In this document: one piece after another, positions 38,258 to 52,594 of the stretch
Layout: each line of letters starts with the position of its first letter
How positions within the stretch are numbered: position 1 is the stretch's first letter
Notes under the pieces: generated by a model
The model's input: only the letters and a program-made list of their open reading frames with translations
What the model was told of the DNA's origin: nothing
Databases searched by the model: none
Made by a program: the position numbers and the translations under genes
NCBI RefSeq assembly: GCF_004168285.1
Contig: NZ_SEWF01000002.1
Location: forward strand, 124,001-188,000
Reading direction: 5' to 3'
DNA length: 64,000 nucleotides
From: Emticicia agri
GTDB taxonomy: Bacteria; Bacteroidota; Bacteroidia; Cytophagales; Spirosomataceae

Positions 38258-39529
38258 TCAGCGTTTGTCAACTCGTGCTTCTTTAATAATACCATTTCCT
38301 TTAAAAATGAAACCTACTTCTTTCAACTCGCCCAGAGATTTGGCATAGGTAGTTTGAAAGATTTCCTTACCATTTAGTTGAATGCTTACCTTTTGATTCT
38401 GGTTAGTAACTTTGATATGCTGCCAGTTGTAAACAGATGTACCAAAAGCAGTCAAGTCTATATTTTTGCCGTCGAATTTTCTTTCGGCAATATTCATGTT
38501 AAGATTGCTTTCGCAACCCTTTGCACTGAGATTGATATACATATACTCATGTTCGCCTTTGAGTAGTAAAGCTGTAGCAGGGCACACAATTCCGGTTGAA
38601 TCTATCTTGAAATCAGACGAGAATACAAAGTTGTTGCCATCTATTTTTAAATCCCGGCTGTGGTGAAAAGTAAGGATAAAAGGTTCGGCAATATCAATTT
38701 TATGACTGGTTAAAATGCTACTTCTTACACCAACAATGCCATCAGGAAGCCAGTATTTAGAAAGAAGTATTTTGTTTTCAATAGTATTCTGGTGAGCGGC
38801 AATCACCCAGTCATCGGTCTTGATATGCACCGGAATCTCTCTGATGATAGAATCATCGGCTATGAGTTTTGCCATATAATACCCTGGCAGGTAATAAATA
38901 TCAGTTTGTTGATGGTTACCCTTGGTTACCTCTACTCTCCGCCTCGTATCCCATGATTGCTGGATATAGAATTTTTTAGCATCTACTGAATCTACATTAT
39001 AAGTAAACACTACTGTATTGGGTACTACGTTATTGACCGATGTTTTTGCCGAAAACTGAATGGCAGAAGCAGGAACCGATTTTTTCAGGAATTTGTCTTT
39101 AAAGGCAAAAAATCCGACAGACAAAACCAATAGTAAACCTAATGCTGCCCATAAGTAAGCAAATCTTTGCTTTGGTAGTTCAGTGAGATGTTTACTATCT
39201 GTACCAATATTTTCAGTTAAAACTACTCTGCTTTTTTCATCAGTCAATTTCGTAGATTCCAGTTTTAAAGCCAACCAGTCTTTATTACGTGCAATCTGGC
39301 TTAGGGCATCTAAAGTAGCAATATGTGGCAGGCGGTTGTATTCATTTCGCCAGATGCGTTTGATAGTGGTAAGGCTGATTTTTACTCCTGATTTCTCTTC
39401 AATAAAAAATCCTAAAAACTCATAGTCTTTCTGTGTCCGGTTTTCAATCCGGCCAAGTCCTGCTTTCTGTGTAATTTCTTTTTTTAGTGTTTCTAATAAC
39501 TCTTTATCTGTTGAGTTTATATCGCTCAT
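38258..39529 (-). CDS. Transmembrane HTH-like regulator with periplasmic PKD/lectin-like domain (pair 1)
   Basis: 423 aa. The cytoplasmic N-terminus (residues 1-100) has SGVKISLTTIKRIWRNEYNR and IATLDALSQIARNKDWLAL, which resembles an HTH DNA-binding fold. A membrane helix follows (YLWAALGLLLVLSVGFF, about 124-142). The periplasmic part begins with a PKD-like segment, VPNTVVFTYN and IYYLPGYYMAKL. It ends with a concanavalin-like domain (NWQHIKVTNQNQKVSIQLNG). The plus-strand homologue at 49518 shares the same blocks in the same order. It is divergent from a secreted concanavalin-like gene at 39658. DNA binding and sensing are inferred. Confidence 0.75.
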   Translation of the reverse strand: MSDINSTDKELLETLKKEITQKAGLGRIENRTQKDYEFLGFFIEEKSGVKISLTTIKRIWRNEYNRLPHIATLDALSQIARNKDWLALKLESTKLTDEKSRVVLTENIGTDSKHLTELPKQRFAYLWAALGLLLVLSVGFFAFKDKFLKKSVPASAIQFSAKTSVNNVVPNTVVFTYNVDSVDAKKFYIQQSWDTRRRVEVTKGNHQQTDIYYLPGYYMAKLIADDSIIREIPVHIKTDDWVIAAHQNTIENKILLSKYWLPDGIVGVRSSILTSHKIDIAEPFILTFHHSRDLKIDGNNFVFSSDFKIDSTGIVCPATALLLKGEHEYMYINLSAKGCESNLNMNIAERKFDGKNIDLTAFGTSVYNWQHIKVTNQNQKVSIQLNGKEIFQTTYAKSLGELKEVGFIFKGNGIIKEARVDKR

Positions 39530-39657
39530 AATCAGGGTTTTATCAAAATAATCGTAAAACAGTTGTAAAACAATTCAATATCGTAAACCTAATTTTTAAA
39601 CCAGTCGGCCATCTTGCGGTATCAAAAAATATTACTCAAAATTTAATTGAATTTATT

Positions 39658-40722
39658 ATGAAAATGCTCAGAATCAAATCATTTATTGTTTATGCGCTTA
39701 CAATCTTCTCACTCAGTTTAAAAGCCCAGAGTACTCTGAAAGACTGGCAGGCTTTCTCGGAAAACAATGAGCCTGTTACTTTAACAGAACAAACATACAA
39801 AGAAAAAGCCTGTGTAAAACTGGATGGAAAAAAAGAAGCCATTGTTATTAACAAGTCTAAAAACTACCAGAATTTCAGAATAGAGTTTGATGTAGCCGCC
39901 AAAGTAATGGCAGGCGTTGGTTTTCATGTAAAAAACGAGCAGAACTACCAGTTTTTGTATTTCAGACCGGGCTATGGCGGTACACAGGAAGCCATTCAGT
40001 ATATTCCTATCTATAATGGAGGGTTAAGCTGGGTATTGTATCATTATCCGATTCATGAAGCTAAAACTGATATTGCTGCAATGGAATGGTTTCATGCAGC
40101 CATAGAGGTGCGGAATAAAATTATGAGGGTATTCGTGAATAACAAGAAAGAAGCAGATATGACCTTAACACTGATTGATACGGATACTGATAGTGGTAAT
40201 ATTCTGCTGAGAAGTATGTTTGGCGAAGCTTATTTTGCTAATGTGTATATTCAGGAAATACCTAATCCGATGACCGACTGGAGTATTTCTGAGCAGTTGC
40301 CACGTGATAAAACGTATGAATATACAGATGTGAAAAAAATGAAAACGTGGAATAAAATCAATCAGAAAAATGATGAAATGGTAAACCTGAAACGGTATTT
40401 TGAGTACCCGAACGGAACTGTTTTTGCCAAAAGAACGGTTACCTCAGAAGCAGATAAGCCACAATTATTGTATTTTGATTTTACCGGAAAACTCCAGATT
40501 TTTCTGAATGGCAAAGAAGTATTTAATTATGCCAAATACAAACTTGACCGATTGAACAATTATGAAAATTGTATTGTGCTTGATATGAAAAAGGGCGATA
40601 ATGAACTGACCTTTGTTATTGAAGGTGATGCTTTTGTATTTGGCAAGGGCTTTAATTCAATGGGTAGATTTCAACACCAGAACTGGGGTTTTATAGCCTC
40701 GCTGGCGGATAAAAACAGATAA
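39658..40722 (+). CDS. Secreted concanavalin/LamG-like protein with C-terminal jelly roll (pair 1)
   Basis: 354 aa with a signal peptide ending LKAQ. Residues about 20-200 are a DUF1080/LamG-like jelly roll: AIVINKSKNYQNFRIEFDVA, GVGFHVKNEQNYQFLYFRP, WFHAAIEVRNKIMRVFVNN and FANVYIQEI. The last 130 residues look like a galactose-binding-type jelly roll (LQIFLNGKEVFNY, GDNELTFVIEGDAF). The shared YxxxYFRP...AxQY blocks link it to the gene at 48720. It is divergent from the transmembrane regulator with a 128 bp shared promoter region, so regulation by that protein is a reasonable inference. Confidence 0.8.
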   Translation: MKMLRIKSFIVYALTIFSLSLKAQSTLKDWQAFSENNEPVTLTEQTYKEKACVKLDGKKEAIVINKSKNYQNFRIEFDVAAKVMAGVGFHVKNEQNYQFLYFRPGYGGTQEAIQYIPIYNGGLSWVLYHYPIHEAKTDIAAMEWFHAAIEVRNKIMRVFVNNKKEADMTLTLIDTDTDSGNILLRSMFGEAYFANVYIQEIPNPMTDWSISEQLPRDKTYEYTDVKKMKTWNKINQKNDEMVNLKRYFEYPNGTVFAKRTVTSEADKPQLLYFDFTGKLQIFLNGKEVFNYAKYKLDRLNNYENCIVLDMKKGDNELTFVIEGDAFVFGKGFNSMGRFQHQNWGFIASLADKNR

Positions 40723-46092: not shown

Positions 46093-46437
46093 ATGGCACA
46101 TCAAAGATTTCAACATTGCATAGACGAATGTATCTCCTGCGCAATTGCCTGTAGCCACTGCGCTACAGAATGTCTCAAAGAAGCTCAGGTGAAAGACTTG
46201 GCACACTGTATTCAGCTTGATTTAGAGTGTGCGGTTATTTGTCGTTCAGCCGCTGACCTCATGAGCTTGGGAAGCGAGTATAGTTATTATCATTGCACGA
46301 GTTGTATTGAAGTTTGTAATGCTTGTGCAAAAGAGTGCGAAAAACATGCCAGTATGGGTATGGAACATTGCAGAGTTTGTGCAGAGGCTTGCCGTAAATG
46401 TGCAGCCGCTTGTGAAGAAATGGTATCTGTGGTATAA
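46093..46437 (+). CDS. Four-helix-bundle copper-binding protein (Csp/DUF326 family)
   Basis: 114 aa with 19 cysteines at positions 9, 13, 16, 20, 23, 27, 39, 46, 50, 68, 71, 75, 78, 82, 93, 96, 100, 103 and 107. These fall in CxxxC and CxxC spacing along predicted helices. This is the signature of Csp-type copper storage proteins, in which inward-facing Cys residues hold many Cu(I) ions. No export signal is present, so it should be the cytoplasmic form (Csp3-like). The gene stands alone, and no copper ATPase or sensor is adjacent. Confidence 0.9.
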   Translation: MAHQRFQHCIDECISCAIACSHCATECLKEAQVKDLAHCIQLDLECAVICRSAADLMSLGSEYSYYHCTSCIEVCNACAKECEKHASMGMEHCRVCAEACRKCAAACEEMVSVV

Positions 46438-47299: not shown

Positions 47300-48625
47300 A
47301 TGAGATATATTTTTTACCTGTTAATCATCGCATTTATGACAGGTGCCTGTGGGCAGGAACAGGATTTGGTTCCTAATCATGCTCCCGGCAGTTTTGAAGT
47401 AGGCACTTTTTTACAAAGTGACGGGAAAACTGTTTTTTTAAGATGGACACCTGCACAAGACCCTCATAATGATGAAATAAGCTATACCGTAGCTTATCGG
47501 GGAAAGAATATAAAGGGTATTAAAGAAACCCAATACGTATTAAATAATCTACCCTTTGGCAGTGATATTGAAGGGAGCATTACCGCCGAAGATGGAAAGG
47601 GAGGCCAGACAACAGTAAAATTTATTATTCAAACAGCCTCAAGCCATGTAGCTATTCCTGATTCGGCTTTTGAAAACGAGCTAATCAGACAGAAAATAGA
47701 TGACAAGAAAGATGGACTGCTGGCAAGAAGTGCGGCATTGCGTGTAACGGAACTGATTATAGCGGGTAAAGGAATTAATAACCTCGTAGGCATTAGTGCT
47801 TTCTCAAACCTAAGCTTTCTTGATTGTCAGGGGAATCGTCTGACACAGCTTTATCTGAATTACAATACCCAATTAAAATACCTCGACTGCCATAGTAATG
47901 AAATTAATGAATTGGAGATAAGAGACTGTGTGGCATTAGAAGAATTATACTGCCAGATGAACAACTTAAATAGTTTAAATATTTTAAGCAACAAGGCTCT
48001 GAAAAAACTCTGGTGTTTCTCTAATACTTTAACGTCATTGATTACAGATAACAATCCCGACCTTGAAACACTAAGTGCTTCTTTTAATAAACTGACTATT
48101 ATAGATATGAGTCAGAACAGAAAGTTAACAGAACTATCCTGTTCGTTTAATAATATATGGAAATTAGACCTCAGCAGAAATGAATTGCTACAATACCTGT
48201 ACTGTTCGGATAATGTACTGACTAATCTGGACATAAGTAAGAATACGATGCTTTATTCGCTCTTTTGTCAGTCTAATACGCTATCAACATTAGATATAAG
48301 CCGCAATGCCGAACTGGTTCATCTGCAATGTTTCAACAATCGTTTAGAAAGCCTGGATGTAAGCAAAAATGCTAAACTTTTGCATCTGTATTGTCAGGCG
48401 AATAACCTTACTTATTTAGGAGTAGGCAAAAACAAAGACCTATTTTACCTGAATTGTTCGGCTAATCGGTTAGAGAACTTAAACATTAGTCAGAATCTTA
48501 AATTAGTCTATCTGTTATGCTATAAAAACAGAATTTCTACCATCTGTATTAATGATTACGCTCGAATTCCGGCTTCCGGTTGGGAAAAAGACAAATGGGT
48601 GAGGTATGAGGTTTGTGAGTATTAG
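47300..48625 (+). CDS. Leucine-rich-repeat surface lipoprotein with FN3-like domain
   Basis: 441 aa. The lipobox is FMTGAC (Cys 17). Residues about 28-113 are an FN3-like domain (FLRWTPAQDPHNDEISYTV). From about 140 on there are about 13 leucine-rich repeats of 21-22 residues with pattern L..LDC..N.LT.LDIS.N (LSFLDCQGNRL, LEELYCQMNNL, LQYLYCSDNVL, LVHLQCFNNRL). The regular Cys in the consensus strand matches the TpLRR type found in Bacteroidota and Treponema. Surface-exposed protein-binding role inferred. Confidence 0.88.
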   Translation: MRYIFYLLIIAFMTGACGQEQDLVPNHAPGSFEVGTFLQSDGKTVFLRWTPAQDPHNDEISYTVAYRGKNIKGIKETQYVLNNLPFGSDIEGSITAEDGKGGQTTVKFIIQTASSHVAIPDSAFENELIRQKIDDKKDGLLARSAALRVTELIIAGKGINNLVGISAFSNLSFLDCQGNRLTQLYLNYNTQLKYLDCHSNEINELEIRDCVALEELYCQMNNLNSLNILSNKALKKLWCFSNTLTSLITDNNPDLETLSASFNKLTIIDMSQNRKLTELSCSFNNIWKLDLSRNELLQYLYCSDNVLTNLDISKNTMLYSLFCQSNTLSTLDISRNAELVHLQCFNNRLESLDVSKNAKLLHLYCQANNLTYLGVGKNKDLFYLNCSANRLENLNISQNLKLVYLLCYKNRISTICINDYARIPASGWEKDKWVRYEVCEY

Positions 48626-48719: not shown

Positions 48720-49361
48720 TTATTTTTTTTCAGCAGGCGTAACAATCAGATTTGTGAACGTACCAAGCGTCATTGGTCCTGTCCATAACCCGATTTTACC
48801 TGCTGAATTGGCTGCCAGACTTTCTACCACCAGACAAGGTTCTTTGGCCTCATTAACAAATGCTTTTATCAGAGGTTTTTCAATGACGATTCTGACATGA
48901 AACCAACCATCAGGGTCGGGTACGGGATTTACTTTATTTTCGTATTTGCCCGGCGAATCCTCACGTAGTTTAGACCAGGGATGAGCAGGCAGACTGCCAT
49001 ACTGTACAGCCCGTTTCCGACGGGCAGTATCCGGATTCATAAAGTTAAACGGGCGGAAGTAAATATGCTCGTAGGTTTTATCATCCTGAATATTAAATGC
49101 AATACCGATAAAACTCTGCTGTAAAATATTCTGTCCTTTCAAATTACATTCAATACTACCATTGTTCATCTGAAAATCGTTGAATACCATCATGCCATCT
49201 GAATCGTTTTTGCCAAGCACAATGGTATCTTTCCACACAGGCATGAGCCGATTATATACCGACCACCTGGCACCCTCTTTCAGGTCTATTTTTTGTGGTT
49301 TGCTTTGACCAAAAGCATTACTTACTACAGTAAGGAGCAGGAGTATTAATATTTTTTTCAT
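48720..49361 (-). CDS. Secreted concanavalin/LamG-like protein (pair 2)
   Basis: 213 aa from the ATG at 49361 (MKKILILLLLTVVSNAFGQ is the signal peptide); the longer upstream frame lacks one. The whole mature part is one DUF1080/LamG-like jelly roll: WKDTIVLGKNDSDGMMVF, FIGIAFNIQDDKTYEHIYFRP, AVQYGSLPAHPWSKL, WFHVRIVIEKPLIKAFVNE and KIGLWTGPMTLGTFTNL. YxxIYFRP and AVQY blocks are shared with the gene at 39658. It is divergent from the transmembrane regulator that starts at 49518, with a gap of about 156 bp. A carbohydrate ligand is probable but unproven. Confidence 0.82.
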   Translation of the reverse strand: MKKILILLLLTVVSNAFGQSKPQKIDLKEGARWSVYNRLMPVWKDTIVLGKNDSDGMMVFNDFQMNNGSIECNLKGQNILQQSFIGIAFNIQDDKTYEHIYFRPFNFMNPDTARRKRAVQYGSLPAHPWSKLREDSPGKYENKVNPVPDPDGWFHVRIVIEKPLIKAFVNEAKEPCLVVESLAANSAGKIGLWTGPMTLGTFTNLIVTPAEKK

Positions 49362-49517
49362 AGTTATTGAGGAATTCATGTGAGAATAATGTGTTGCCAG
49401 GAATTGCATTAGATTGATTTTTTTTGGCAAATTTGTAGGAAAGAAAAAGCTAATACTTGACCAAAGATGTACCAAAACAGGTTCATGTTTGTGCAAACCT
49501 AAATTTTGAATCATTAC

Positions 49518-50816
49518 ATGGAGTATTCAGAAGCAGAAAATATAGAAAAATGCAAAAAAGCCATTGAAGACAAGCTGAACTGGGGGAGTAGTGCCTTGTG
49601 GCTGAATTACGATTTTGAAAGGCTGAACGAACAGATATTTGCCGAGACAAACGTACAGATAAGTGTTTCTACTCTTAAAAGAATATTCGGCAAAGCCAGC
49701 TACCACAGTTCTCCGTCTTTGACTACACTCAATACATTAGCCCAGTTTATCGGGTTTACCAACTGGAGAGGATTTACCAAGAGTATTGTGCCGCAACCAA
49801 CAGTCTCCGATGCTCCGGTATCACCTGTGATTGCGCCTGAACCTGTTGTGGTTACTAAAAACCAACGGAGGTATTTTATTTATGGTATTATCAGTACACT
49901 GGCTATTATCAGTCTGATTGCTTTTATGGTACAGAAAGAAGAACCACTATTAGATAGTTCTAAATTTGCTTTTAAAGCTAATAAAATTGTGACTGAAGGC
50001 GTGCCCAATTCGGTGATTTTTACCTATGATGCTACGGCTACCAATATCAACGATTCGGTATTTATTGTACAGACATGGGATATGAAGCGCAGGAAAAAAG
50101 TAGATAGAAATGCACATAACCATTCGGCTATTTATTATTACCCGGGTTTTTTCAGAACAAAGCTGATAGTAAATAAGCAGATAGTAAAAGAGCATGATTT
50201 ACAGATTAAAACCGCTAACTGGCTGGCTTTGGTAGAGTCAAAGAAAGAAGCCCAGATGCCCTTGTATTTTGCTAAACCGGAGGTACTGAAAGGAGATGAA
50301 ATAAGCATAGACAGAGACTTGCTGAAAAAGTATAACCTATCGCTCCAGCCCGAAGCACCTAAAATCAGGTTTTTTAACCAGACTGATTTAGGCGAGTTAA
50401 TGAACGATAATTTTACGTTTGAAACATTCCTGAAAAATGATTTTTCAGATGGCACAGGTGCCTGCCAGAAAGTACAGGTGCTGATTCAGTGTAAAGATGA
50501 TATTATTATTATACCCCTATGTGCCAAAGCCTGTGTAGGTAATATTAATTTAGTTGCCTGTGGCACGGTTTTAACAAGTGCGGATGCCGATTTATCAGGC
50601 TTTGGTTGTGATTTAAACCAGTGGACGAAACTAAGAGTTGAAACCCGTAACAAGCAAATGACCTTTTTTGTGAATGATAAGAAAGCGCATACGCTCACAT
50701 TTGACCATAACTCAACCGGAATTGTGGGTTTACAGTATCGCTTTGAAGGTACAGGTGCTGTAAAAGACACATGGATTGAAGGCGCAGGAGGGAAGCATGA
50801 GTTTGTGATGAAGTAA
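49518..50816 (+). CDS. Transmembrane HTH-like regulator with periplasmic PKD/lectin-like domain (pair 2)
   Basis: About 432 aa from the ATG at 49518; a TTG at 49506 is a less likely start. Layout matches the minus-strand gene at 38258: cytoplasmic TNVQISVSTLKRIFGKASYH and SLTTLNTLAQFIGFTNWRGF, a Pro-rich stretch, a membrane helix (YFIYGIISTLAIISLIAFM), a PKD-like part (VPNSVIFTYD, TWDMKRRKKV, IYYYPGFFRTKLIV, IKTANW) and a concanavalin-like end (WTKLRVETRNKQMTFFVND). The periplasmic part has several Cys (C-Q-K-V, LCAKAC, VACG) that may form disulfides. Regulator role is inferred from fold resemblance and divergent pairing. Confidence 0.75.
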   Translation: MEYSEAENIEKCKKAIEDKLNWGSSALWLNYDFERLNEQIFAETNVQISVSTLKRIFGKASYHSSPSLTTLNTLAQFIGFTNWRGFTKSIVPQPTVSDAPVSPVIAPEPVVVTKNQRRYFIYGIISTLAIISLIAFMVQKEEPLLDSSKFAFKANKIVTEGVPNSVIFTYDATATNINDSVFIVQTWDMKRRKKVDRNAHNHSAIYYYPGFFRTKLIVNKQIVKEHDLQIKTANWLALVESKKEAQMPLYFAKPEVLKGDEISIDRDLLKKYNLSLQPEAPKIRFFNQTDLGELMNDNFTFETFLKNDFSDGTGACQKVQVLIQCKDDIIIIPLCAKACVGNINLVACGTVLTSADADLSGFGCDLNQWTKLRVETRNKQMTFFVNDKKAHTLTFDHNSTGIVGLQYRFEGTGAVKDTWIEGAGGKHEFVMK

Positions 50817-51716: not shown

Positions 51717-52594
51717 ATGAGCAAACAAGCAGATGTTTATAATCTTCCTGATGATATTTTCTCTGATAAATCATTCTTATCAGACCCTATTATCATGTAT
51801 GACTATGAAGCAAAAATGGGTACTTTTAAAGGGAGAAGTATTTTACACAGAAATGCTATAAGTCTTGTAATCAGTGGAGAGAAAACAATACATTTTGCTG
51901 AAAAATTAGTGAACATATACGAAAATGAATTTCATTTTCTGTCTTCAGGTAATTGCCTTGCCTCAATGGATTTATCGAAACAGGCAGTTTTCAGAAGTAT
52001 CTTAATCTTTTTTAATGATGAGGTACTTACCGAATTTTATGTAAAATATGCCAAATTAATCAACCCACTGCGCAACTCAGCCATTCGCCTTATATTTCTT
52101 TGGTAAAAGATGATTTTGTATATCATTATATAGATTCGCTGAAACTGATGCTGAAAAATCAGAGGCCGGTTTCAGAAGCTATGAAACTCTTGAAATTTGA
52201 AGAACTGATGTTGTATCTTCTGGAAAAATACCCGCAGATTATCCTGTCTTTTCAGCCTGAACGCAAAACTAATTTTGACGATATAGCCCTGAAAAAGATA
52301 GTAGAAATTAATCTGATGAATAACCTGACTCTGGAAGAATTAGCTTTTTTATGTAATACCAGTTTATCAACCTTTAAACGACGTTTTATGAAACTATATG
52401 GTATGCCGCCTAATAAATGGATATTACAACGTCGGATGGAAAAAGCCGCTCATTTACTCAAAAATTATCATATACGCACCAGTGAAGTATTTTATCAGGT
52501 AGGGTATGAAAATCACTCAAGTTTCTCGCAATCTTTTAAACACACCTTTGGCAAAACACCTAAAGAATATCAGACACAGTTATTGAACGCTTAA
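51717..52594 (+). pseudogene. AraC-family transcriptional regulator, split by a frameshift
   Basis: Two overlapping frames together make one normal AraC-type protein of about 290 aa. The first (51717-52106) encodes the N-terminal ligand-binding domain and ends abnormally in IRLIFLW. The second begins in frame with YISLVKDDF at about 52088 and encodes the linker and the double-HTH domain (LTLEELAFLCNTSLSTFKRR, VFYQVGYENHSSFSQSFKHT, FGKTPKEY). Reading CGCCTTATATT as CGC CCT TAT ATT would restore the frame, so loss of one C in a C-run is the simplest cause. It could be a real mutation or a sequencing error. Confidence 0.85.

Follow-up and report, generated by a model that had tools for sequence, protein, structure and literature searches.

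Two genes that point away from each other, one coding for a candidate membrane-tethered regulator, which we call R, and the other for a secreted protein with a concanavalin A (ConA)/CBM66-like fold, which we call S, are paired across many genera, and the gap between them usually carries a strand-specific tandem array of short direct repeats. We consider it likely that R is a membrane-tethered one-component regulator, which controls S via this array in response to a glycan or sugar that it senses in the periplasm. Since both the pair and the shared site recur in related bacteria, this appears to be a little-known means by which these bacteria control what is secreted, and we found no description of the R/S pair in the open literature that we searched. 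R would represent a further class of regulators with a definable DNA site, allowing regulon predictions for many soil- and plant-associated genera. It would likewise offer a handle on DUF2911 and S-family proteins of unknown role, and the array would provide a direct way to test the docking of a membrane-bound regulator on a multi-site operator.

The window, a stretch of 64,000 nucleotides from Emticicia agri, holds two such pairs (Table 1), of which R2/S2 is a paralogue of R1/S1 (38258-40722), both being divergent. An earlier note on this DNA had pointed to a second copy of the divergent arrangement, to five sequence blocks shared by the regulators and to an inverted gene order between the copies, all of which our analysis bears out: the ORFs of both pairs are present, the alignment of R1 with R2 covers 430 columns at 25% identity (E=1e-32), and each block occurs in both proteins (STLKRI/TTIKRI, VPNSVIFTY/VPNTVVFTY, WDMKRR/WDTRRR, IYYYPG/IYYLPG and IKTANW/IKTDDW in the two regulators). 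The likeness between S1 and S2 is weak in a two-sequence comparison (24% over 94 residues, E=1e-6); iterative HMM searches seeded with either of them recover the same set of proteins, and the two belong to one family. As listed, the S2 ORF reaches to 49514 and has an N-terminal extension. Because two Emticicia orthologues begin there, its signal peptide most likely starts at the ATG with first base 49361, which sets the R2/S2 gap to 156 bp; for R2, the ATG at 49518 is probably the start. The E. agri genome encodes six R paralogues, and since S is the divergent neighbour of R1 and R2 alone, it is the main, but not the only, partner of R. The other four, including the sixth and distant paralogue P0008, face a DUF2911 protein (PF11138) and proteins of 238, 152 and 1103 amino acids; a Pfam scan of the 238- and 152-residue proteins gave no match. 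The 1103-residue protein (L012, 3130-6441, minus strand), which is divergent from P0008, is repetitive and has a Peptidase_S74 chaperone domain near its end, as found on phage tail fibres.

Table 1. Features of the two divergent pairs, in window positions.
Feature	Position	Strand	Basis
R1, regulator paralogous to R2, copy 1	38258..39529	-	
Copy-1 candidate operator, ~11-bp repeats, different half-site, TNGTAAAACA-like	39552..39589	.	
S1, secreted S-family protein with two domains, 354 aa, above the PF06439 cut-off	39658..40722	+	
S2, secreted ConA/CBM66-like protein with a single domain, 213 aa, corrected start	48720..49361	-	
Copy-2 candidate operator, four direct half-sites, spacing 11, 10, 10 bp	49461..49499	+	
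R2, membrane-tethered regulator candidate, 432 aa	49518..50816	+	ORF; 80 named relatives
R2 residues 1-90, HTH-like domain, all-helical and predicted to be cytoplasmic	49518..49787	+	AlphaFold; weak HTH_3 profile match
R2 residues 116-138, single transmembrane helix	49863..49931	+	AlphaFold; flank charges
R2 residues 151-239, beta-sandwich (PKD-like part)	49968..50234	+	AlphaFold
R2 residues 261-428, ConA/CBM66-like domain, two invariant Cys (C316, C339)	50298..50801	+	

A scan of genome contigs yielded 467 relatives of R, the best 80 of which, all from Bacteroidota, we refer to as named loci; they include Dyadobacter, Chitinophaga, Niastella, Pedobacter, Sphingobacterium, Algoriphagus, Galbibacter and Flavobacterium. 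According to a simple ORF caller, 77 of the 80 have a divergent upstream neighbour, compared to 142 of 555 other genes taken as background, and 66 of these 77 neighbours belong to the S family, with DUF2911 proteins (L116, L119), one contig edge, a short ORF and unrelated genes among the remaining 11. The pairing of R and S is not a product of chance. The earlier suggestion of a two-gene system is therefore upheld as far as the pairing goes, with S divergent at 66 of 80 named loci, but not in the sense that R would be exclusive to S; overall, the data largely support a linked R/S system.

R was detected in 110 of 200 genomes from the same family. S lies within 3 kb of 75 of the 117 full-length R listed there (E ≤ 1e-104), divergently in 74 cases; conversely, among the matches listed, R is found within 3 kb of 82 of 120 S (E ≤ 1e-39) and of 5 of 30 weaker S, or 87 of 150. 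S also occurs without an adjacent R. Every one of the 63 genomes with a two-domain S (E ≤ 1e-60) contains R, compared with 110 of the whole set of 200. In a phylum-wide sample of 296 genomes, R is present in 8 and two-domain S in 15, both at E ≤ 1e-60, with all 8 contained in the 15 (hypergeometric 5e-12, without a correction for kinship; our shuffle and hypergeometric statistics ignore relatedness throughout), and 7 of the 15 are without R at the threshold. By the places listed, 7 of the 8 R genomes have at least one divergent adjacent pair; in G310, R and S are 327 kb apart. As to the co-evolution proposed for the two partners, R and S distance matrices correlate (Mantel r=0.37, reached by 0 of 2000 permutations) in a test in which co-evolution and shared descent are indistinguishable, and it is not supported by the raw matching of paralogues within genomes, where 13 of 28 genome pairs agree, as at chance level. 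Where R has a clear preference, 10 of 10 pairs agree, with a cut set afterwards and three of the pairs being close Emticicia orthologues.

Inverted repeats, which had been anticipated in both promoter gaps, are absent from copy 2; its gap instead contains direct repeats at one helical turn, at a distance of 18 bp from the ATG of R2 and of 99 bp from that of S2. The copy-1 gap has one 8-nt inverted pair with 66 nt between the halves, which we judged to be a chance occurrence. The unit of the array, (G)T(T/G)CAA(G/A), is repeated directly and in tandem with a period of 10-11 bp. Of 62 of the 66 R/S gaps (L075, L082, L088 and L100 were dropped by length), 58 have CAAR-N6/7-CAAR pairs on the R strand, against a mean of 4.0 and a maximum of 9 in 200 shuffles, and 47 have CAAR triples at 10/11 bp (shuffle mean 0.6, maximum 4). 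The array is strand-specific, with 10-bp spacing at 53 loci on the R strand versus 5 on the other, and with a matrix trained on these same gaps, 58 of 66 reach a score of at least 13.2 on the R strand, but 3 of 66 on the opposite one. As some R starts look wrong (L162, L165), these counts are lowered. At paired loci, the first unit usually lies 53-80 bp from the S start and the last one 11-43 bp from the R start, with outliers. The consensus -7 box is TAnnTTTG; between array and S, this motif is not enriched (4 of 82 versus 2.2 in shuffles), whereas TTTG alone is (58 of 82 versus 21), and a sigma-70 scan, with 4 sites found and 7.0 expected, was uninformative.

The half-site is not the same everywhere. 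The common array is absent at R1, P0006 and P0008, and the repeats of the R1/S1 gap are conserved by eye in four Emticicia. In five genomes of family f26, which by its kinship label falls outside the window's class, the unit is CGTTCATTTA-like, and 6 of 6 sequences show it at 10/11-bp spacing (0.06 on average in shuffles, maximum 2; the pattern was written after looking); in G310, one of these genomes, the variant half-site precedes R as well as the distant S. Scanning whole genomes with a strict pattern gave no discrimination, with hits in 22 of 30 genomes with R and 16 of 30 without. A separate stretch, G034:C2:955819-955910, carries about eight tandem 11-bp units, TTCAAGGTACT, with the period and core of the array.

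What does the array accompany where the partners are apart? We assembled 37 of the 38 S (E ≤ 1e-39) without R within 3 kb, leaving out that of G153, plus 2 weaker ones. The array scores at least 18, in the same orientation, at all 24 two-domain S examined, and it is present at 2 and absent at 13 of 15 small S; control upstream regions on the same strand reach this score in 2 of 410 cases, both picked for their array, and otherwise in 0 of 408. In 8 of 8 Dyadobacter genomes in which both S and an unpaired full-length R were analysed, the array is found at S (25.4-30.5) and missing at R (-10.3 to 6.4). Likewise, the S2 orthologue of Emticicia G004 retains the array (25.3), although a search for an R2 orthologue was negative; next to it lies a gene similar to the one that follows R2 in the window. 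Nine S loci of genomes without detected R have no array, all being of the small type, so that absence of R and type of S are confounded in this set. In G454, where R was not found at E ≤ 1e-60, two S genes, one of them near a contig edge, have array-like scores of 14.1 and 27.5.

Conversely, at R without S (a set that leaves out R at G035, G026:C30 and G083), the score is at least 12 in 21 of 44 cases on the R strand and in 0 of 44 on the opposite strand. This set has 43 divergent neighbours, of which four are doubtful short ORFs; the others include DUF2911 (PF11138), MacB/FtsX permease-like, GFO/IDH/MocA and beta-lactamase-fold proteins, as well as a beta-helix-like protein below the cut-off. 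An unpaired DUF2911 gene has a strong array (31.9) in two genomes, a lead that came from the strict pattern scan. Distant R (L196 and L197 by scan, L198 and L199 by eye) face TonB-dependent receptors and are without the array. A secreted-looking gene of 164 amino acids (L185, 8029-8523, minus strand) has an upstream array-like score of 16.2 and is possibly another target.

On the protein level, the AlphaFold model of R2 (pLDDT 91, pTM 0.68, 55 sequences) places five helices in residues 1-90. For the 55 R members, this N-terminus scores above the cut-off for none of the HTH families among the 25 of 28 Pfam families listed. Its hhalign match to HTH_3 (PF01381), 41% over 29 columns, is suggestive at most, with a score of 23.3 versus 16.7 for the best of 50 column shuffles. 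A PDB sequence search with the N-terminal alignment, in which three full-length rows led to a 430-position profile, returned nothing, and there was no HTH structure among the 50 Foldseek matches listed for R2. These included sialidases, laminin-G-like domains and CBM66, mostly with low TM-scores (0.5-0.6 by target length for CBM66). The flanks of the R2 transmembrane helix favour an N-in topology, but the positive-inside rule does so in only 55 of 85 R. The C-terminus of R2 scores 18 against PF06439, below the cut-off, and the C-terminal profile of R matches that of S at 91% over 62 columns.

In its predicted layout, R would fit the ToxR/CadC type, which is described as having an N-terminal cytoplasmic DNA-binding part of the winged-HTH kind, one transmembrane helix and a C-terminal periplasmic sensor (PMC5936718); likewise, no phosphorelay domain was seen in R. 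Unlike in these regulators, the N-terminus of R is predicted to be all-helical, and its sensor is a beta-sandwich plus a ConA/CBM66-like domain. R most likely works like a ToxR/CadC-type one-component regulator, but none of the 55 members matches a winged-HTH family among the 25 of 28 Pfam families listed. The glycan switches known from Bacteroidota include SusR, hybrid two-component systems and ECF sigma/anti-sigma pairs, and SusR of Bacteroides has a C-terminal DNA-binding part, its half-sites being predicted at a distance of 67 or 77 bp from each other (PMC3878776). By analogy, R may resemble SusR-like regulators as a membrane regulator of Bacteroidota with periplasmic sensing, direct-repeat sites and carbohydrate-handling targets. 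Compared by description, it differs from SusR in its N-terminal HTH-like part, its ConA-like C-terminus and a site period of 10-11 bp, and it is unlike hybrid two-component systems in that neither histidine kinase nor receiver domains are matched by Pfam in R1 or R2.

S1 passes the PF06439 threshold (43.1 versus 26.8 bits) and is close in fold to the 3-keto-glycoside hydrolases of the PF06439/DUF1080 group and to CBM66 (PMC9007349; 4b1m, 8tda): the nearest PDB entries to its model (pLDDT 86) are CBM66, with a TM-score of 0.74 by target length for 4b1m_B, followed by DUF1080 structures. S2 differs from 3keto-disac_hyd (PF06439) in staying below the cut-off (19.5 versus 26.8 bits). Among 77 scanned R partners, 54 match PF06439 at E ≤ 0.01. 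The S profile matched a bacterial toxin structure (E=0.023), and toxin chains appeared in the fold list, which we attribute to chance or fold-level likeness. Five of the 77 partners match alpha/beta-hydrolase families. At L200, L215, L216 and L218, rows of S genes follow a 279-residue protein, which itself has a weak S-profile score of 34-42 bits.

We computed the pairing, the array, its persistence at S after R had moved, the co-occurrence and the domain layout, and we infer DNA binding by R, the sign of regulation and the ligand. The cytoplasmic HTH-like domain of R would bind direct half-sites one helical turn apart, and the transmembrane helix would join it to the periplasmic beta-sandwich and ConA/CBM66-like sensor. 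Because the array sits upstream of the divergent S, R would control S probably by activation, and because it is also near the R start, a paired R may limit its own transcription. Since exported S has the same carbohydrate-binding-type fold as the R sensor, R probably senses a periplasmic glycan or sugar and would adjust the output of a protein for its binding or processing.

With the same parts and the opposite sign, R might repress S and release it when the sensor binds its ligand. No data fix the sign, and the R start, too, is near the array; the usual position of the array, mostly 52-80 bp before S and upstream of a TTTG-rich stretch, is activator-like, and we think repression rather unlikely. 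Another possibility is that the array is the operator of an unlinked or global regulator of S, with R sharing the promoter region as a neighbour but acting otherwise, for instance as a membrane sensor that binds S. The persistence of the array at S where R is elsewhere, its presence at the G454 S genes and the weakly supported HTH nature of R would agree with this. We nevertheless regard it as improbable, because R paralogues whose partners are unrelated have the array too, on the R strand only, two-domain S is confined to R genomes in the family sample, the nine S loci of R-less genomes have no array, and the half-site changes by clade at R and S alike. Lastly, R and S might be neighbours by shared descent only and have no functional link. 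The modest Mantel correlation, the chance-level matching of paralogues and the 7 of 15 phylum genomes with S and without R would be in line with this, but the pairing spans many genera, co-occurrence holds where the genes lie apart, and the array is kept at unpaired S, which makes such a scenario very unlikely.

Beyond regulation of S by R through the array, a more tentative picture, which we see as possible if doubtful, is that a multivalent polysaccharide clusters the R sensors, so that receptors would dock head-to-tail on three to four half-sites one helical turn apart and the operator would count clustered receptors. S, with its sensor-like fold, would then compete for or trim the same glycan and thereby close a feedback loop, and paralogues would be kept apart by altered half-sites and a swapped partner gene.

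Some other genes in the vicinity of R2/S2 may be mentioned. A leucine-rich-repeat-like secreted protein (47300-48625, plus strand) adjoins S2. Further upstream, a small Cys-rich protein (46093-46437, plus strand) is encoded, which we take to be similar to copper-storage/DUF326 proteins. Downstream, two overlapping ORFs in different frames (51717-52594, plus strand) resemble the two halves, N- and C-terminal, of a single AraC-like regulator and look like a frameshift, a split gene or a sequence error.
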